A stretch of 36,370 nt of DNA. Source: Candidatus Parcubacteria bacterium. GTDB lineage: Bacteria; Patescibacteriota; Minisyncoccia; UBA9983. Made by a program: the position numbers and the translations under genes. The notes under the pieces were generated by a model. The model made no database searches. It was given only the letters and a program-made list of their open reading frames with translations, and was not told where the DNA came from. The DNA is taken from contig QZIU01000025.1 in assembly GCA_003599625.1 (NCBI GenBank), forward strand, positions 1-36,370, written 5' to 3'. Positions 1-18,802 of the stretch are shown here, piece by piece (positions within the stretch are counted from its first letter, which is position 1; every line of letters starts with the position of its first letter).

Positions 1-1
1 A

Positions 2-1258
2 GGACTCCAGGGTATTATGGGTACGCTGACCAATCATCCGCTAAAAATCAGGGCAAATAATACTGACATTTTAACTCTTACAGCATCCGGCAACGTCGGC
101 ATTGGCACCACCTCTCCTTACTCCCTCCTCTCCCTTAAAGGTTCTTCCGGAGCCCAAATGACCATCGCTCAGGCCGACACCAATTATGCGGAATTGACGG
201 TGGACGCTTCAGGCAACTTCAAAATAGATCCGTCCGGCTCAACCGTCACCATTCCCGACCAGAATCTTAAAGTCTGCGCCGGAGACGCCTGCCAGACCGA
301 TTCTACTTCCGGCAACGGCAATCTTATTGTGGAAAACGACATAGAGATAGGGGGAGACTACAATCGCACTTGCGCCACCGGCTACATCTGGGTGCCCGGC
401 TCCGCCAAATTCGGCACTATGCCCGGCTTCTGCGTGATGAAGTACGAGGCCAAGAACGACGGTTCAAACAACGCCGTTTCCACCGCCACAGGCGGTCCGT
501 ATGTTTCCATAGACCAGCCGACTTCCCGAACCAAATGCGAAGCCGTCGGCCTCGGCTATCACCTTATCAGCGAACCGGAATGGATGACCATCGCCGAGAA
601 CATCGCCCAAACGCCGATAAACGATATGGACGACGATGCCGGCCTCCAGTTGGCCACCGGCCATTCGGATAACGCTCCCGGTGCCGCCCAGGCAACCACC
701 GCCTCCGCCGACCCCGTCGTTTCCGGCTGCAATCTTTCCGCCACCATGGAGAACGCCGCTAACGCTTACTCCGCCTCTTCTTGCGAGATCCAAGGCGACG
801 GTTCTTACGGAGGGGATGACACGGACAAAGGCTTCTACGGCACGTCTCAGGCCTGGGCAACGACCGGCTATTCTTCCGGCGCCGCCAACAAAGCCCAGCT
901 CAGAACGCATGCCCTTTCCAACGGCAATGTCATCTGGGATTTCGCCGGCAATGTGTGGGAGTGGACGGACGCTTATGTGAACGGGACGGCGGAGAAACCG
1001 GCGTCCGCCACGGACGCGTGGCAGGAATTCAGCGCCATCACCAATTATGTAACGCTCAATTACGCCAGACCGCAGAATCCTTCCTGGACTTCCGCCAACG
1101 GCATAGGCCAGTATTACGGAGGCGCCTCCGCCGGCCAGCGCGGCTTCCTCCGCGGCGGCAACTGGTTCGCTGGCGCGCTTGTTGGCGTCTTCACGCTGCT
1201 CCTGTACTACGCTCCGTCCTACACGTACACGTCCCTCGGGTTCCGTTGCGCTCGCTGA
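2..1258 (+). CDS. DGR target protein: tail-fibre-like region plus FGE-sulfatase/C-type-lectin domain (5' partial)
   Basis: The frame is open to the left window edge, so the gene probably starts upstream; the ATG at 17 has no ribosome binding site and lies inside the open frame. Numbering here is from that ATG. Residues 1-110 have low-complexity, tail-fibre-like sequence (the motif ASGNVGIGTTSP is typical of phage fibre and CPR surface proteins). From about residue 117 comes an FGE-sulfatase/CLec fold, with GNVWEW near 315 and a closing GFRCAR. The last 39 codons are the VR. Twelve residues differ from the template translation: 378, 384, 385, 388, 389, 395, 397, 398, 402, 404, 406 and 407, including four Asn-to-Tyr. 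FGE/CLec folds are known DGR scaffolds that display variable ligand-binding surfaces. Surface location and ligand are inferred. Confidence 0.9.
   Translation, partial: GLQGIMGTLTNHPLKIRANNTDILTLTASGNVGIGTTSPYSLLSLKGSSGAQMTIAQADTNYAELTVDASGNFKIDPSGSTVTIPDQNLKVCAGDACQTDSTSGNGNLIVENDIEIGGDYNRTCATGYIWVPGSAKFGTMPGFCVMKYEAKNDGSNNAVSTATGGPYVSIDQPTSRTKCEAVGLGYHLISEPEWMTIAENIAQTPINDMDDDAGLQLATGHSDNAPGAAQATTASADPVVSGCNLSATMENAANAYSASSCEIQGDGSYGGDDTDKGFYGTSQAWATTGYSSGAANKAQLRTHALSNGNVIWDFAGNVWEWTDAYVNGTAEKPASATDAWQEFSAITNYVTLNYARPQNPSWTSANGIGQYYGGASAGQRGFLRGGNWFAGALVGVFTLLLYYAPSYTYTSLGFRCAR
1138..1256 (+). repeat. DGR variable repeat (VR)
   Basis: This 119-bp segment aligns to TR 1767-1885. The last 21 bp (1236-1256) are identical to TR and GC-rich, which fits the initiation-of-mutagenic-homing end. 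VR stops one base into the stop codon: VR continues TGAAG where TR continues TTCAG, so the stop codon is specific to the target gene. Substitutions in VR relative to TR adenines are mostly A to T and A to C, with one A to G. Confidence 0.95.
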
Positions 1259-1320
1259 AGGGGTTTATCTTAATCTAAAATCTTAAATCTGAAAATCTAA
1301 AATCAAATTTTTCAAAAAAA

Positions 1321-1692
1321 ATGGTTCAAGATTTGACAGTATTTCAAAAAACTTATGATTTTCTGCTTTGGCTAAAGCCGGTGGCGCAGAAGTTTGCTAA
1401 GGCGCATAAATACGGGTTAGGCATCGAAATTGAAAATGAAACAGTTAGATTGCTTAAAAAAATAATAGAAGCGAATCTTTCCAGAAGCAAAAAAGAAGAA
1501 CTGATTGAAGAATCTTTGGTCGTGTATGAAATAATCCGCACGCTCGTCAGACTAAGCAAGGATTACAAACAAATCAGCGTCAGGCAATATGAATTTGCCT
1601 CAAAAAATTTGGTTGAGATAGGAAATTTGCTCGGCGGATGGCGAAGAAAATTCAGTAAAAATTTTCAAGCAGCGGGAAATTCAGGGAAATAG
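1321..1692 (+). CDS. avd: DGR accessory variability determinant, Avd-like four-helix bundle protein
   Basis: This 123-residue, mostly helical protein resembles the four-helix-bundle (23S rRNA intervening sequence/Avd) family. It has charged amphipathic helices and a basic C-terminus (GGWRRKFSKNF). In studied DGRs, Avd forms a pentamer that binds the RT and the TR RNA and is required for cDNA synthesis. The position between VR and TR is the usual one. It starts at an ATG after an A-rich stretch without a Shine-Dalgarno sequence, 62 bp after the target stop codon. The call rests on fold-level resemblance plus context. Confidence 0.85.
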   Translation: MVQDLTVFQKTYDFLLWLKPVAQKFAKAHKYGLGIEIENETVRLLKKIIEANLSRSKKEELIEESLVVYEIIRTLVRLSKDYKQISVRQYEFASKNLVEIGNLLGGWRRKFSKNFQAAGNSGK

Positions 1693-2115
1693 AATAAAGG
1701 CCGTTTTTGATGACTTTTATTCTGTTTCTCTCTTGAGAAGCAGAGGGTGTGGTGTTTAACAAAAGCGCGCGGCTTCATCCGCGGCGGCAACTGGAACAAT
1801 GGCGCGAATGATGGCGTTTTCACGCTGAACCTGAACAACGCTCCGTCCAACACGAACACGAACATCGGGTTCCGTTGCGCTCGCTTCAGTGGTTTTTAAA
1901 ACTGGCCGGAATTTCGTCTTCTATGGAAGACGGGAGTGAGCCAAATAACCCCAAACGCCATTCCTTTCAGAGTAGGCCTTTAATAAACCGAAATGAAAAA
2001 TATCAAGCCCGTATCCGGAGAAAGACGGTTTTTGAAAACAAAAATTCCTTTCTCCGGTCAGTAGGCTTTTATTAAGTTGAAAGTTAAAAAGTTTATAAAG
2101 TTCGAAAGTTAAAAA
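1693..2115 (+). other. Non-coding DGR interval: pre-TR leader, TR and TR-RT spacer
   Basis: This 423-bp gap between avd and the RT holds the TR (1767-1885) and candidate RNA structures. Downstream of TR there is a 7-bp stem with a 4-nt loop (1915-1921 with 1926-1932) and a 10-bp stem (2015-2024 with 2048-2057, loop 23 nt). The sequences AGTAGGCCTTTAATAAA and AGTAGGCTTTTATTAA flank the second stem as a near-direct repeat. In well-studied DGRs the spacer between TR and RT is part of the functional RNA that primes cDNA synthesis. I see no credible protein gene here. Confidence 0.7.
1767..1885 (+). repeat. DGR template repeat (TR)
   Basis: This is a non-coding, adenine-bearing donor copy of VR. 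Read in the VR frame it would encode many AAC/AAT (Asn) codons at exactly the positions that vary in the target: residues F384, A385, L388, L395, Y397, Y398, Y402, Y404 and S406 are all Asn in TR. AAY-rich templates are typical of DGRs because A-mutagenesis of AAY reaches many amino acids without creating stop codons. TR has 26 adenines, 17 of which differ in VR. Confidence 0.95.
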
Positions 2116-3196
2116 ATGTTTAACCAGATTTGCGATTTTGAAAATTTGCACAAGGCGTATTTGAAAGCCAGGAAAGGGAAAAGATACAGAGGGAAGATTT
2201 TGGAATTCGGATATAAACTGGAAGAAAATTTGCTGAAATTGAGAGAGGAATTGTTGAGTGGGAATTACCGGCATGGGGCGTATAGAGAGTTTGTCGTTTG
2301 TGATTCCAAAAAACGCCACATTAAAGCGGCGCCGTTTAAAGACAGAGTTGTCCATCATGCCGTATGCAATATCACAGAGCCGATTTTTGAAAAAAGTTTT
2401 ATTTATGACAGCTACGCTTGCCGAGAGGGGAAAGGAACGCATAAAGCGGTGAAAAGATTGCAAAACTTCTTGAAATCAATAAGAGAATTATTGGCTTCTC
2501 GAGAGACCCGCCCAATGCTTCGCATTGTGGCGGGCAAGGAGAGAAAGTCGGGGGGGGGGTAAAAGTAATCCGGCCATTTACTGCCTCAAATGCGATGTTT
2601 CCAAATATTTTGACAATGTGAACCACGGGATTTTATTGAAACTGGTCGGGAAGAAAATCAAATGCGATAAAACAATGGAACTTATGGGAAAAATTATCAA
2701 AAGCGACAACGCGCCAAGCGGAAAAGGCATACCGATAGGCAATTTGACCAGCCAGCTTTTCGCCAATATTTATCTTAACGAGCTTGATTGTTTTATAAAA
2801 AGAAATTTGCGGGCAAGATATTATATTCGCTATATGGATGACTTTCTGATACTGGATTTTAGCAAGAAAAAACTGCATCAGGCAAAAGAAGAAATTCGGA
2901 GATTTTTGGAAAACAATTTGCGTTTAAAACTGCACCCTAAAAAAGCCAATGTTTGTCCGGCGGACAAAGGAATTGATTTTCTGGGATATGTCGTTTTTGA
3001 AAATTATAGATTACTGCGAAAAAGCACAATCAAAAGATTTATCAAGAGAACGAAAAAATACGCGAAAAAGGTCGAGCAAAACCAATTAACAAAAGATAAA
3101 TTCGCCCAATCTGTGGCTTCCTGGACTGCTTACGCCGGATTCGGAAATTCCTGGAGATTGAGGAGAAAGTTGGGGAGAAAAGGGGGGTTGATTTAA
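2116..3196 (+). CDS. DGR-type reverse transcriptase, interrupted by a +1 frameshift
   Basis: Two frames together make one RT. Positions 2116-2559 encode the N-terminal part (contains FKDRVVHHAV), then a stop at 2560-2562. The second frame, entered within the G run at 2550-2559, encodes the catalytic part. Motif A has Asp at 2594 (CDVSKYFDN), motif B reads IGNLTSQ (2735-2755), and motif C is YMDD (2831-2842), followed by HPKKAN and FLGYVV. The IGNLTSQ-type motif B is typical of DGR RTs and differs from the group II intron QG form. Removing one G would restore a continuous protein of about 360 residues. Just upstream, an inserted hairpin adds about 20 residues before motif A. It may be a sequencing error, a phase-variable gene, slippage-expressed, or a decaying gene. 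Confidence 0.88.
2507..2534. repeat. GC-rich palindromic insert inside the RT gene
   Basis: Bases 2507-2518 pair with 2522-2534 as a 12-bp stem with one bulged T (2528) and a 3-nt loop. It lies in a stretch that interrupts the usual RT sequence between the N-terminal helices and motif A. It looks like one of the small palindromes scattered through this window. Confidence 0.75.
2550..2559 (+). other. Run of ten G at the RT frameshift point
   Basis: Ten consecutive G are followed directly by TAA in the upstream frame. A tract of nine G would fuse the two RT halves. AGGAG at 2537-2541 lies about 8 nt upstream. Homopolymers like this are prone to sequencing error, replication slippage and transcriptional slippage. 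Confidence 0.8.
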
Positions 3197-3235
3197 GCGG
3201 AAGCGTTCTTGTTGCGGGCATAAGATGAGAAATGT

Positions 3236-3241
3236 TATAAT
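3236..3241 (+). promoter_or_regulatory. -10 box of a leaderless promoter for the MNT/HEPN pair
   Basis: TATAAT ends 5 nt before the ATG at 3247. A weak -35 (TTGCGG, 3212-3217) is 18 bp upstream. There is no Shine-Dalgarno sequence. Transcription would start at or next to the start codon. Confidence 0.6.
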
Positions 3242-3246
3242 AAAGT

Positions 3247-3555
3247 ATGAATAAAACCGAAGAAATTAAAAAAATAGCCGAACAAATCGCCAAAAAATAC
3301 GAACCACAGAAAATTATTCTTTTTGGTTCTTACGCGTGGGGGAATCCCGGTCCGGACAGCGACATCGATTTATTGGTGATTAAAGAAACGAAAGATACGA
3401 GACAAATGGCGCGGGAAGTGGATCGTTTGATTTTTCCTCGTCGATTTTCTCTTGATTTGATCGTTTATACCCCGGACCAAGTAGGAAGACGAATGAAACT
3501 AAACGACTTTTTCATTAAAAATATTTTAACCAAAGGCAAAGTTTTGTATGGATAA
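3247..3555 (+). CDS. MNT-type minimal nucleotidyltransferase (antitoxin-like partner of a HEPN protein)
   Basis: This 102-residue protein has the pol-beta nucleotidyltransferase signature: G27-S28, then D39 and D41 (DSDIDLL), with a third acidic residue at D70 (LDLIV). The length is that of the minimal MNT family. In MntA/HepT systems the MNT protein adds AMP to the HEPN toxin and neutralises it. The gene overlaps the downstream HEPN gene by 8 bp, so they are translated as a pair. It has its own promoter-like -10. The antitoxin role is inferred from family and pairing; some MNT-HEPN pairs have other functions. Confidence 0.85.
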   Translation: MNKTEEIKKIAEQIAKKYEPQKIILFGSYAWGNPGPDSDIDLLVIKETKDTRQMAREVDRLIFPRRFSLDLIVYTPDQVGRRMKLNDFFIKNILTKGKVLYG

Positions 3556-3943
3556 TCAAGAAGAAATTATTTTGGAATGGATTAAAAAGGCGGAGGAAGA
3601 CGAATTTGCCGGAGAAATTATATTGAAAGACGGAAATTTTTTTACTCCGGCTTGTTTTCATTTTCAGCAAGCGGCTGAGAAATTACTTAAAAGTCTCTTG
3701 ATTTTCCATGACATAGAATTTTCTAAAACTCATGACCTGCTTGAATTGGAAACATTGCTTTTGGAGATTGAACCGGATATTAAAGATTGCGAAGAAGAAT
3801 TAATTTTGCTTAATCGTTATTCCGTTGAAGTTCGCTATCCGGGTGATTATCCGGAAATTTTCTCAAAAGAAGCCAATGAGGCGCTTAAAGCCGCCAGAAA
3901 GATTAAAGACTTTGTTTTAAAAAAGATTAAAACTGGAGCTTGA
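3548..3943 (+). CDS. HEPN-domain protein paired with MNT
   Basis: This 131-residue all-helical protein resembles the PF05168 HEPN family. The N-terminal helix carries FHFQQAAEKLLKSLLI, followed by THDLLELE and the RYPGDYPE segment seen in one HEPN branch. HEPN proteins next to MNT genes are often RNase toxins. The R-x4-6-H ribonuclease motif is not visible near RYSVEVRYPGD, so either this branch lacks RNase activity or it uses another site. The gene starts at ATG 3548 inside the end of the MNT gene. Confidence 0.8.
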   Translation: MDNQEEIILEWIKKAEEDEFAGEIILKDGNFFTPACFHFQQAAEKLLKSLLIFHDIEFSKTHDLLELETLLLEIEPDIKDCEEELILLNRYSVEVRYPGDYPEIFSKEANEALKAARKIKDFVLKKIKTGA

Positions 3944-3981
3944 AAAAAGACAGCTTTACAAACTTTTTAACTTTAAAACTT

Positions 3982-5100
3982 ATGAACTTTCTTCGCTTCA
4001 TCAAATACAACAACGCCTTTCTCATCATCCTCGGCATTGTCTTTCTCGCCGCCGGAAGCTCCTTCGCTTCGGAGAAAGTCAGAGACACCGTGATAGGACA
4101 GACGATAGAAGAAGTCAAAGGCGTGGACAATTCCGCTCTGCTTGCCATCAATCTTGATTCTCTCAAACAAGAAATGAGCATCGCGGACGTAGCTGAAGAC
4201 GAAGACAATTATCTTGTTTCTTACGCTTTCTCCACCTTCGACATCAAAGACAATATCTGGCAGAACCAAACCAAGACCCAAACGCTTAAAGTTCCCAAAG
4301 ACGCGCTAAAGGGCGGCAAAGACCTCGGCCTTTACGTCCAGAGCGAACTGGCCCAGATAATGGACAACCAACTCGCTTATCTCAAAGACGCCAAGGAAAA
4401 AGAGCAAAAGAAAGGCGAGACCAAAATCGTCAAAACCACCAAATACACCGGTCTTAAAGGACTCGTTCTCAATTCAGAAACCAAAGAATTGGAGGGCTAC
4501 GAGCCGGTGATTAAGAAAGAAGAAAGAAAAGACCCGCCGTATGTCCAGTTTACCCCGCAATCGGCGGGGCCGGCGGCTGTCGCTGAAGCGGTAACGAGCT
4601 CGTTATCTTCTAGCTCCCCGCTTCCGTCGGAGCAGGTTTCAAGTTCAAGCTTGTCATTCGACGCGACTTCCGGTTCAAGCGATGAGTCTTCATCTTCTTC
4701 CAATTCCCCCGATGACAGCGACTCCTCGGACTCAACCTTCCAGGTTGAAGACAACCAGGCAGGTTTGTCCTCGTCGTCGCTGTCATCTTCGTCTCAAAAT
4801 TCTTCAACATCCGACTCATCGGCGGCTTCAAGTGCTGGCAGCGGGAGCGAGGAAGTCAGCTCATCGTCATCTTCCGAAGCAGTCAGTTCGTCTTCCTCAG
4901 AATTAAGTTCTTCATCAGTGGAGTCGTCAGAGACCGCTGGCTCCAGCAGTTCCACGAGATCCGCTTCGTCATCTTCATCCGAGCCGGCAAACTCCTCATC
5001 TGCCGTTTCTTCATCTGATTCTTCGCCTGAAGCCAGTTCAAGTTCTGAGTCTTCTTCTTCATCTTCGGATTCCTCATCATCCAGTTCTTCTTCCGAGTAG
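3982..5100 (+). CDS. Secreted protein with a long Ser-rich C-terminal region
   Basis: I chose ATG 3982, which gives a clean signal peptide: basic start, hydrophobic core (FLIILGIVFLAAGSSFA) and a likely cut after about residue 28. An upstream TTG at 3940 would bury the signal. Residues 30-190 form a mixed globular region of no recognised family. From about residue 205 to the end the protein is mostly Ser with Glu, Asp, Ala and Pro, like a linker or stalk exposed outside the cell. No C-terminal anchor is visible. Within the Ser region, residues from 4733-4765 (QVEDNQAG) come from the core of the roughly 70-bp palindromic repeat. The proximity to a DGR target raises the possibility of a surface-assembly partner, but nothing shows this directly. 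Confidence 0.7.
   Translation: MNFLRFIKYNNAFLIILGIVFLAAGSSFASEKVRDTVIGQTIEEVKGVDNSALLAINLDSLKQEMSIADVAEDEDNYLVSYAFSTFDIKDNIWQNQTKTQTLKVPKDALKGGKDLGLYVQSELAQIMDNQLAYLKDAKEKEQKKGETKIVKTTKYTGLKGLVLNSETKELEGYEPVIKKEERKDPPYVQFTPQSAGPAAVAEAVTSSLSSSSPLPSEQVSSSSLSFDATSGSSDESSSSSNSPDDSDSSDSTFQVEDNQAGLSSSSLSSSSQNSSTSDSSAASSAGSGSEEVSSSSSSEAVSSSSSELSSSSVESSETAGSSSSTRSASSSSSEPANSSSAVSSSDSSPEASSSSESSSSSSDSSSSSSSSE
4733..4765 (+). repeat. Core fragment of the ~70-bp palindromic repeat (copy C)
   Basis: This 33-bp stretch matches the central part of the copies at 18249-18318 and, reversed, 5596-5665, but lacks both terminal inverted repeats. It is read in frame within the Ser-rich protein. Confidence 0.8.
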
Positions 5101-5131
5101 TCACTTAGCGGTTTAACCGCTCAAAATCAAT

Positions 5132-5818
5132 TTGCGTCAAATATATCTTACCAAGGGCATAATATTGAAGAAAAAAGACCTGGGCGAGGCGGACAGGTTA
5201 TTATACATATATACGGAAAATCTCGGGATGATCATGGCTTCCGGGCAAAGCGTCAGATCGGAGAAGTCGAAACTAAGGCCTAACCTTGATTTGTTTGTAT
5301 ATGGAAGCTTTGCCATTATTTCTCTTGGGGAATTCTGGAGATTGGTGGACGCGAGAGAAATTGTCTCTTTCCGGATATGTCCGGATTCTTCGGGGGAAGT
5401 TAAAACCTTTGCCGAAGTTGCTAAGCTGATCCTGAGAATGGTGAAAGGCGAAGAGAGGAATGAGGAAGTTTGGCGGGCGTTGAAGGATGCTTTTGAGAAG
5501 CTGAACGGAGATTCGGCTTGTGGAAAACTTGTCCGACCGCGCCGGGTTCGAAACCTAACCCGGCGGGACTGCCAAGTTATCCACAAGCCGACGGAGCCTG
5601 TGGGAAACTCTTCCAACCTGCCTGGTTGTCTGCAACCTGGAAGGTTGGTTGAGTTTTCCGCAGGCGGAAACAGAAGAGACGAGGACTTAAAAACCCTCGA
5701 AATACAAACCGTCGCGAATATATTAAAGGGCTTGGGTTATATGGATAAAACTTCTTTTTCGAGCCAAAAAGAAGCCGTAAAACTCATCAATGAGGCGATA
5801 AAGGAAAGTATGTTATAA
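5132..5818 (+). CDS. recO: DNA repair protein RecO, with palindromic repeats inserted in frame
   Basis: The first 70 residues match the RecO OB-fold: TKGIILKKKDLGEADRLL and then SKLRPNLDLF. RecO loads RecA with RecR in recombinational repair. The start is TTG at 5132, since no in-frame ATG precedes the conserved block. Residues about 128-178 are encoded by two palindromic repeats (5514-5590 and 5596-5665) and look unlike RecO. Without them the protein would be only about 177 residues, short compared with the usual roughly 240. No zinc-finger cysteines of the classic type are evident. The gene remains open through the insertions, so a functional RecO with a surface loop is possible. Confidence 0.85.
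   Translation: MRQIYLTKGIILKKKDLGEADRLLYIYTENLGMIMASGQSVRSEKSKLRPNLDLFVYGSFAIISLGEFWRLVDAREIVSFRICPDSSGEVKTFAEVAKLILRMVKGEERNEEVWRALKDAFEKLNGDSACGKLVRPRRVRNLTRRDCQVIHKPTEPVGNSSNLPGCLQPGRLVEFSAGGNRRDEDLKTLEIQTVANILKGLGYMDKTSFSSQKEAVKLINEAIKESML
5514..5590 (+). repeat. Palindromic repeat, variant with a different core, inside recO
   Basis: The 17-bp ends (5514-5530 and 5574-5590) are inverted repeats with one mismatch. The inner part has its own dyad, GCCGGGTT with AACCCGGC. The ends resemble those of the 70-bp family (GGCTTGTGGAAAACTT against GCCTGTGGAAAACTC). TTATCCACA, the DnaA-box consensus, is at 5577-5585. Confidence 0.8.
5596..5665 (-). repeat. ~70-bp palindromic repeat (copy B) inside recO
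   Basis: The reverse complement of this 70-bp segment matches 18249-18318 at 66 of 70 positions by eye. The ends are 15-bp imperfect inverted repeats. It is translated in frame in recO in the opposite orientation to the prepilin copy. Confidence 0.88.
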
Positions 5819-5828
5819 TAACTCATAG

Positions 5829-5926
5829 CTCAAAGCGTAAAACTCAGAACTACAATGCAAAACTTAAAACGGAATTCCAGTTTAAACTTTGAGTCAAGTT
5901 TTGAGTTCTAAATTTTGAGTTTTGAG
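5829..5926. repeat. AT-rich imperfect inverted repeat before the DUF11-like gene
   Basis: The left arm is CTCAAA/AAAACTCAGAAC-like and the right arm GAGTTTTGAG-like, around a central GGAATTCC. It is of the same kind as the intergenic repeats at 9452-9577, 12616-12732 and 13946-14046. It could fold into a long weak hairpin. Confidence 0.5.
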
Positions 5927-5937
5927 ATAGTATTCCC

Positions 5938-7875
5938 ATGGACAACCTTGAAGAATTAAAAAAGAAACTATATCAAAAGGACGGGGGGTTAGGCTCAAGG
6001 CTTGATAGGGAGTCTTTAAAAGAAGATGATAACGGCAGTCTTGCAAAAAATTATTGGAGTTCCGCCGAACCGAAGACCATCGAAGCAGGTTCAGGCTCCG
6101 GAATTCGGGGAGACTGGGATCCGGGCCTAAAGCGCCGGAATACTTTAAGCAGTATGAAATTTTTTATATTCTTATTCTTTTTTATCGTCATTTTGGCCGG
6201 AGGGGGAGCGGCTTATGTTCTTTATTCCGGCGGAAATATAATATCTTCTTCCAATGTTTCGGTGGAGGCGGCCGGCCCTGTCTATGTCGATGGCGGGCAG
6301 GAAGCTAAATTTAATTTTACCGTCAAAAACCAGAACGGCGCGACGTTGGAAGTTGCGGATCTGATCTTTGATTTTCCCGCCAACACGTTTTCCTCGCAAG
6401 GCGAAACTATGACCCGGACGAGAATATCTCTGGGCAAGCTTGAACCGGGAGCCGTCGCGAACAAAAGCCTGAATCTTGTTTTCTTCGGACTTGAAAACGA
6501 GGAGAAAAAGATCCAGGCGAATCTTGAGTATCGTTTCGCCGATTCCAACGCCATATTCGTAAAAAGCAAGGACCATTCGGTAAAGATCTCAAAAGCCCCG
6601 GTCGGCCTGTCCGTTGAGGTTCCGAAGGAAGCCGTATCCGGCCAGAAAATCGCCGTGAAGGTGGCGGTCGTGTCAAATTCCGATGCGATCGCTCCAGATT
6701 TAAAACTGGAACTCAAGTATCCGCCCGGTTTCAGGTTCGAAGAATCCGACCCTGAACCAAGCAAAGGGAATAATCTTTGGAATCTGGGCGATTTCGGGTC
6801 CTCCCAGCAGAGAGATATAGTGATAGAAGGAACGATCGAAGGCGAGAACTCCGAAGAAAGGACATTTACCGCCACCGTCGGGGTGATGGAAGAGGGTGGC
6901 GCGATGAGGCCGTTCGGCTCAGCCAGCCAAAAACTGGCAATAAAGAAATCCCCCCTCAATCTTTCCGTTCTCATAAACGGCTCCGATGAGCCGGAGTATG
7001 AGGCTCGCGCAGGGGAATCGATCCGGCTTGATTTAAATTGGGTCAACAACCTCTCCGGAAATATTCGGGACGCTAAGGTTGAACTTGAGCTGGAAGGGGA
7101 GGCTCTGGACGAAAGATCTTTCTCGGTTACAAAGGGAACCTACTTGAGCCAGGAGGATAAGATCGTTTGGACGCCGTCTTCCCTTAAAGATTTGGCCTTG
7201 ATCTCATCCGGAGCTTCCGGAAAGAGCCAAATGAGTTTTACCATCAAAAGAATTTTGCCGGTCTCGGGCGAAGACGACAAAAATTTTGCCATAAAGGTCA
7301 ATGCCAGAATAACCGGAACGGGCACTTCCGACCAGTATGAAAACAAGCAAATTACCGACAATATCGGGAAAGAGATAAAGATCGGTTCAAGATTGCAAGC
7401 GGTGGGAAAGACGCTGCATTATTCCGGACAATTCAAAAATTCGGGCAGTGTTCCGCCGAAAGTCGGAGAGGAGACTTCTTACACGATCGTTTGGTCTCTG
7501 GCCGGCAATGTGAATGATTTGTCGGACGTGAAAGTTTCGGCCAGTTTGCCTCCGTATGTTACCAAAGGCGAGGGAGTCCACCCCGAGGGTTCGGACTTGC
7601 AATTTGACGAGAAAAAAGCGACACTTGTATGGAATGTAGGGAATGTTTCGGCGGGAACGGGACTGATCTCGCCGGCGAAAGAGATCGCTTTTCAAGTCTC
7701 CATCACCCCAAACTTGGCCCAAGTCGGAACTGCTCCGATTCTTGTAAACGGAGCAAGCGTGGAGGGGCGAGACAGCTTTACCGGGGAAGCGGTAAGAGCG
7801 CAGATATCCGAATTGACCGCCAGTTTAAGCGCCGATCCGCAGGCGAAAGGAAATGATGGGAAGGTGGTAGAGTAA
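5938..7875 (+). CDS. Membrane-anchored surface protein with DUF11/CARDB-like beta domains
   Basis: The 645-residue protein has a charged cytoplasmic N-terminus of about 75 residues, one transmembrane segment at about residues 80-98 (FFIFLFFFIVILAGGGAAYVL) and a long extracellular part. The outer region contains repeated beta-sandwich-like units. Recurring elements include VSGQKIAVKVAVVSNS, LELKYPPGFRF with WNLGDFGSSQQ, and SASLPPYVT with LVWNVGNVSAG, as in DUF11 and related conserved repeat domains. There are no catalytic motifs. The likely role is in the cell envelope or adhesion. The start ATG follows an AT-rich inverted repeat. Confidence 0.75.
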   Translation: MDNLEELKKKLYQKDGGLGSRLDRESLKEDDNGSLAKNYWSSAEPKTIEAGSGSGIRGDWDPGLKRRNTLSSMKFFIFLFFFIVILAGGGAAYVLYSGGNIISSSNVSVEAAGPVYVDGGQEAKFNFTVKNQNGATLEVADLIFDFPANTFSSQGETMTRTRISLGKLEPGAVANKSLNLVFFGLENEEKKIQANLEYRFADSNAIFVKSKDHSVKISKAPVGLSVEVPKEAVSGQKIAVKVAVVSNSDAIAPDLKLELKYPPGFRFEESDPEPSKGNNLWNLGDFGSSQQRDIVIEGTIEGENSEERTFTATVGVMEEGGAMRPFGSASQKLAIKKSPLNLSVLINGSDEPEYEARAGESIRLDLNWVNNLSGNIRDAKVELELEGEALDERSFSVTKGTYLSQEDKIVWTPSSLKDLALISSGASGKSQMSFTIKRILPVSGEDDKNFAIKVNARITGTGTSDQYENKQITDNIGKEIKIGSRLQAVGKTLHYSGQFKNSGSVPPKVGEETSYTIVWSLAGNVNDLSDVKVSASLPPYVTKGEGVHPEGSDLQFDEKKATLVWNVGNVSAGTGLISPAKEIAFQVSITPNLAQVGTAPILVNGASVEGRDSFTGEAVRAQISELTASLSADPQAKGNDGKVVE

Positions 7876-18243: not shown

Positions 18244-18802
18244 AAAAAGCCTGTGGAAAACTCAACCAACCTTCCGGGTTGAAGACAACCAGGCAGGTTG
18301 GAAGAGTTTTCCACAGGCTGCCGGCTCCACATTGCTTGAAACGGTTATTTACTCGGCCATTTTGGCGTTGGTGGCGGCTTTAACGGCGCAATCCTTTTTG
18401 GCCATGAGTAAAACTTACGCTTCCATAAGGGCAACGCGAGCCGTAAACATCTCGACAGTCTCGGCGATGGAAAGAATCATAAGAGAGATCAGGCTGGCTG
18501 ATACGATTGACGAGGCGGGGAGTATTTTGAGTAACGACACGGGGAAACTGAGGATTATCGCCGGAGCTTCCTCGACCGAATTTTCTTTGATCGGAAGCGA
18601 TGTTTACATAAGCGAGAATGGCGGATCTTTCGATCCTCTTACGTCCAGTTCCAGCGAAATTTTGCTGATGCGTTTTGATAAAATAACCGCGTCTGGAACC
18701 TCAAAAGCCTTGAGGGTCACAATGGAAACCCGGGCAAAGGTCGGACATATTCAAAAACAGGAAAAGTTTTACAACACGGCGGTTTTAAGAGGAAGCTATT
18801 AA
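18224..18802 (+). CDS. Type IV prepilin-like protein (PilW-like) with a repeat-encoded leader
   Basis: The 192-residue protein has a prepilin motif AAG then STLLE at residues 35-39 (Glu at mature position 5), followed by a hydrophobic helix (TVIYSAILALVAALTAQSFLAM). The leader is 34 residues long, and most of it (about residues 9-32) is encoded by a 72-bp palindromic repeat at 18248-18319. Normal leaders in this operon are 13 residues. The only upstream start is ATG 18224, inside the 3' end of the preceding gene. The mature part resembles PilW/GspJ-type minor pilins. The peptidase needs only G-1 and E5, so cleavage may still occur. Confidence 0.82.
   Translation: MLRIYFKKSLWKTQPTFRVEDNQAGWKSFPQAAGSTLLETVIYSAILALVAALTAQSFLAMSKTYASIRATRAVNISTVSAMERIIREIRLADTIDEAGSILSNDTGKLRIIAGASSTEFSLIGSDVYISENGGSFDPLTSSSSEILLMRFDKITASGTSKALRVTMETRAKVGHIQKQEKFYNTAVLRGSY
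18248..18319 (+). repeat. ~70-bp palindromic repeat (copy A) in a prepilin leader
   Basis: The 16-bp terminal inverted repeats are perfect: AGCCTGTGGAAAACTC (18248-18263) and its complement (18304-18319). The core has nested dyads (CAACC/GGTTG). It matches the reverse complement of 5596-5665 with four differences in 70 bp. It has no transposase and looks like a MITE or RPE-type element. Confidence 0.92.

Follow-up and report, generated by a model that had tools for sequence, protein, structure and literature searches.

The window, that is, the whole 36,370-nucleotide stretch of DNA analyzed here, belongs to a Patescibacteria (CPR) genome and carries a diversity-generating retroelement (DGR), recognized by a variable repeat (VR) with its template repeat (TR), an avd gene, and a reverse transcriptase (RT). 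The locus comprises the following features:

2–1258, + strand: DGR target gene, an open frame with an FGE-sulfatase-like (C-type lectin) C-terminal domain (Pfam FGE-sulfatase)
1138–1256, + strand: VR, aligned to the TR over 119 bp
1321–1692, + strand: avd, the accessory variability determinant, intact (NCBIfam NF033474, above the equivalog cut-off; Pfam bAvd, E 5e-18)
1767–1885, + strand: TR, aligned to the VR over 119 bp
2116–2562, + strand: N-terminal part of the RT, an open frame; as assembled, the presumed OFF product without the catalytic residues
2507–2535, + strand: palindrome in the RT linker with GA-rich remnants on both sides (hairpin fold –29.8 kcal/mol, z –2.8)
2550–2559, + strand: G10 tract, the proposed slippage switch; relatives carry (GA)n or Gn at the homologous position
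2561–3196, + strand: catalytic C-terminal part of the RT in another frame, with a DISKYFDNV-like motif A, IGNLTSQ, and YMDD (PF00078, E 2e-18)

A preliminary description of this DNA had interpreted the locus as an adenine-directed DGR acting on a surface protein of the FGE/C-type lectin kind. Its numbers were all reproduced: VR and TR align without gaps over 119 bp with 18 differences, 17 of which lie at TR adenines (26 adenines in total; hypergeometric p = 3.2e-13), and 12 codons differ in the encoded amino acid, with Asn in the TR at nine of them. From TR to VR, the changes at adenines are 10 A>T, 6 A>C, and 1 A>G; the sole difference elsewhere is T>C. The two repeats also represent the longest direct repeat within positions 1–6000. 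Past activity of the element, as claimed in that description, is well supported by these A-specific changes, and the assignment to the DGRs holds on the combined evidence of the VR/TR pair, avd, and an RT with IGNLTSQ and YMDD, which correspond to the IGxxxSQ-like motif 4 and the YxDD of DGR-type RTs. The genome search for additional VRs that had been proposed there returned one VR and one TR only, with no further copy of either in the whole genome (0.9 Mb, 35 contigs), and the RT is likewise single.

Because the window begins at base 1 of the contig, the 5′ end of the target gene is missing. The window protein matches Pfam FGE-sulfatase only under the cut-off (E 9e-4), but all 12 of the 12 aligned members of its family match this model (best E 2e-17), in agreement with the proposed FGE/C-type lectin kind. 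A PDB sequence search with the target protein gave no meaningful match, and its AlphaFold model, with a mean pLDDT of 46, is too low in confidence for use. An Rfam search across the window returned a tRNA and nothing else.

While the DGR interpretation stood, it had been overlooked that the RT is out of frame at G10. What sets the locus apart is this tract, not its VR/TR pair. The open frame at 2116–2562 encodes the N-terminal third of the RT and ends with a TAA stop directly after the G tract, and the C-terminal part finds its best solved-structure match in 8ub7 (E 4e-31), which we take to be the BPP-1 DGR RT complex. The nearest named relatives of this RT come from Parcubacteria and Wolfebacteria MAGs. 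The two frames part exactly at G10, so that an intact RT is impossible in the present assembly state; the single intact RT frame expected of a DGR is absent as assembled. Based on an alignment with intact relatives, we placed the frame break between ...RLxxFIxS and YCLKCDISKYFD, in the linker between RT motif 2 and motif 3/A that contains the tract. Since this position is 5′ of the first catalytic Asp, the OFF product should be inactive.

G10 is the sole homopolymer of at least 7 G/C (or at least 9 A/T) in the 36 kb window, and as in the simple repeats of phase-variable genes, its unit is not a multiple of three. Within the linker, GA-rich remnants surround the palindrome at 2507–2535 and are followed by the G tract, an order suggestive of an older GA tract that may have been interrupted and then replaced. 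The palindrome was also considered as a dispersed repeat and rejected, with one genome match, i.e. a single copy. Not every simple sequence repeat (SSR) of this genome can be regarded as a phase switch: the other G tract (C25) lies in a terminator-like hairpin outside called genes, and no clear gene could be assigned to a GA tract (C35).

Directly downstream of the RT, positions 3247–3943 encode an MNT nucleotidyltransferase/HEPN pair of the toxin-antitoxin type, followed at 3940–5100 by a protein without family match that combines a hydrophobic N-terminal segment with a long C-terminal half of low complexity and rich in serine. A separate repeat of ∼28–33 nt is inserted in protein-coding ORFs at 4738–4765 (–), 5615–5642 (+), and 18272–18299 (–), with six genome matches at no more than three mismatches. 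It resembles the in-frame palindromic elements of Rickettsia.

SSR contingency loci are phase-variable genes, for instance with poly-G tracts in Campylobacter and Neisseria or tetranucleotide tracts in the mod genes of Haemophilus. The tracts described here resemble them in being non-triplet coding repeats near a start or in a tolerant linker, with mixed ON and OFF states among related loci. They differ in that the gene proposed to be switched is itself a mutator (the retroelement RT or its accessory protein) and not a surface or methylase gene. We consider it quite probable that hypermutation by the window DGR is switched by such a contingency locus through slippage at G10 in the RT linker. 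In living cells, slipped-strand mispairing by DNA polymerase would lengthen or shorten the tract, and the RT would be full-length only if the tract length modulo 3 joins both frames; otherwise, it would end before the catalytic residues. In ON cells, the TR would be copied with errors at A into the VR and the FGE/C-type lectin target thereby diversified, and OFF cells would retain the current VR. The benefit may be a bet-hedging of the mutation rate.

Repeats at the homologous place of the RT linker are also present in relatives. Among the nearest RTs, L018, L019, L020, L023, and L024 carry (GA)n of 14–54 nt and L042 shows G12; L380 has G9, and L381 and L385 (GA)n. From other classes, we identified L454 with (GA)16, L468 with (AC)13.5, and L469 with (AG)12.5. 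A second internal (GA)n site, located just before RT motif 4 (GIPLGNLTSQ), was observed in L434 (n+552), L437 (n+537), and L474 (n+563), in frame in 3/3.

The RT of the window could simply be a pseudogene, or its frame could have been lost by a homopolymer error in sequencing or assembly, so that an ordinary DGR would remain. Homopolymer indels are a frequent type of error, the window is known from a single MAG assembly, and DiGReF (PMC3521204) has recorded DGR RTs that lost function through a frameshift, a nonsense mutation, or an insertion. The latter share a disrupted RT frame next to an intact VR/TR pair, but they were read as one-off inactivations, whereas the break described here lies at a tract prone to slippage, and such tracts recur at the homologous sites. 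An indel error would not generate same-site tracts with different units in other genomes, and the other frame-shifted linker loci also break at the tract. In pairs of OFF loci, moreover, the third-codon-position excess is the same after the tract as before (L019/L024: 0.19/0.10/0.48 versus 0.20/0.09/0.53), and downstream of the tract the OFF RT appears to be still under coding constraint, contrary to what a broken gene would suggest. Their VR/TR pairs are equally clean, differing almost only at A and as A-specific as those of ON loci; mismatches at other bases per 100 bp amount to 0.90 where avd is OFF and 0.86 where it is ON (no difference, p 0.7). Taken together, a defective RT or an erroneous assembly is an unlikely explanation. 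In one of the OFF relatives, the DGR target (L023:2835–3695) contains a TGA stop, which hypermutation may have created, within its variable region.

A heritable switch by slippage is to be distinguished from programmed ribosomal frameshifting or transcriptional slippage, which would provide a steady fraction of full-length RT or Avd, as known from some IS elements. Polymerases can slip on long G tracts, and such a mechanism would account for selection acting on OFF frames. In the linker-repeat loci (the window and 12 others), though, the direction is not fixed: five are in frame (L042, L385, L454, L468, L469), four at +1 (the window, L018, L020, L381), and four at +2 (L019, L023, L024, L380), so that close relatives include both ON lengths and, in eight cases, OFF lengths. 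This near-equal split is the prediction of free slippage, not of programmed frameshifting. To our knowledge, repeats with units of two, four, or five nucleotides, which occupy the same sites, do not belong to the typical slippery signals either, which again argues against this mechanism. We rejected programmed frameshifting on the mixed phases and regard this whole explanation as very unlikely. Paralogous DGRs within one genome can even differ by one G and show opposite avd phases (G9 OFF, G10 ON), as found for L015/L017 (G003) and L275/L314 (G173).

To return to the tracts as putative phase switches, we determined how widespread they are. RT loci were drawn by RT homology alone, taking the best matches from 384 genomes of the window's class, 152 of which have an RT, and a core reaching from 130 nt upstream to 1150 nt downstream of the conserved RT start was searched for SSRs. 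A core tract is present in 103 of 147 RT loci. With 106 tracts in 188 kb of core and eight in 412 kb of flank, the enrichment is 29-fold (Poisson p 8e-113), and 90 of the core tracts are located 15–80 nt upstream of the conserved RT start. Tracts also occur in other classes of the phylum: 54 of 85 loci there harbor one, with the units G, GA, GT, CT, AC, ATTG, TGTCC, and CTGTC. The same scan of 147 DGR RT loci from outside the CPR (80 viral, 67 from genomes) revealed none, and none of 87 non-CPR avd starts has a tract within 200 nt. In the family of the window genome, tracts of at least 9 G or at least 6 GA are rare (42 in ∼7 Mb, among the matches listed), and six of its eight DGR RT loci contain one. 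Since ∼30% of the CPR DGR loci lack a tract, it is not essential. On a FastTree RT phylogeny of 252 rows, the tract state changed no fewer than 50 times; for site plus unit, the minimum is 70 changes. The occurrence of repeats in mutator genes of about two-thirds of the sampled related cassettes suggests random on/off switching of hypermutation.

The composition of the tracts bears on their effect on the reading frame. In the core, 155 units shift the frame (lengths 1, 2, 4, 5, 7, or 8) and a single one preserves it (3 or 6), compared with 17 and 10, respectively, in the flanks; trinucleotide repeats are lacking from the RT/avd core. Most loci have avd and rt in divergent orientation, with the tract inside the 5′ portion of the avd coding sequence, where it reads PPP or SLSL on the avd strand; in some, one tract spans the overlapping 5′ ends of both genes. 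All 83 of the 83 testable loci have, on the avd strand, an ATG that opens into the tract over a distance of at most 60 nt; for shuffled sequences, the figure is 38%. Start codons of avd and rt are inferred throughout. No in-frame avd ATG is found in 67 of 85 tract loci, compared with 5 of 40 divergent loci without tract, and 33 of these 67 lack GTG and TTG starts as well. In most related Patescibacteria DGRs, a tract in the avd 5′ coding region, in some cases extending over the beginning of the divergent rt, would play the role proposed for G10 in the window. Where rt has no start past the tract, the same change in length would turn on both avd and rt in 25 of 39 loci, with 13 expected by chance. 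Only about 15–16 of ∼85 avd tracts are in frame, i.e. less than one-third, which counts against such a switch; OFF could be favored, or some starts could be misassigned. In L264, a back-to-back C9G9 between avd and rt (n–59 to n–42) represents a perfect self-complementary slippage site.

Another set of repeats is found ∼45–70 nt past the RT stop in L250, L252, L266, L272, L287, L308, and L326, about n+1022 to n+1099 from the conserved RT start, with that of L308 lying just before the stop. They consist of tetranucleotides (GGAT, GATG, ATAG, GTTG) or C13, and several are preceded by a promoter-like TATAAT on the opposite strand. We found no gene shifted by them; they do not fit a frame switch and count against this explanation. 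An effect of the tracts not on the frame but on transcription (promoter spacing or the 5′UTR between divergent avd and rt) or on RNA structure would accommodate these repeats as well as the position between two divergent genes in most relatives, with the rt ATG just downstream of the tract in 43 of 85 loci, but it is most improbable given that the tract is inside the RT coding sequence in the window's clade, that the core is free of triplet units, and that most tract loci leave avd without an in-frame start.

Frame switching by slippage thus remains the preferred explanation, and we think it likely that it extends across the Patescibacteria, with DGR hypermutation generally under the control of contingency loci: slippage tracts in avd, in rt, or in both would switch the mutator and thereby establish a two-tier stochastic diversification. 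Among known systems, BPP-1-type DGRs, including the Patescibacteria-restricted DGR clade 2 of Roux et al. 2021 (PMC8144416), come closest; they share the DGR-kind RT, Avd, TR, a VR in an FGE/C-type lectin target, and A-specific changes, but differ from the loci described here, where frame-shifting simple repeats occur in RT and/or avd and the assembled window RT does not keep a single frame. The passages on these subjects in that article make no mention of frame-shifting repeats. A full-text literature search, with incomplete coverage of work on CPR DGRs, returned no published description of a phase-variable DGR. DGRs and contingency loci are each already known; their combination in a putative phase-variable DGR appears to be new.

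These tracts also have practical consequences. Gene callers will split or truncate the RT and avd genes that bear them, and DGR surveys that filter on RT length may miss OFF alleles; one survey used a filter of 250–550 aa (PMC8144416). If the proposed switch is true, tract length should predict VR diversity, which can be tested in existing metagenome reads. The regulation of DGRs in nature has been called an “exciting frontier” (PMC12875486, 2026). A length-coded ON/OFF tract would, if true, explain why possession of a hypermutator need not cost a cell a good variant.
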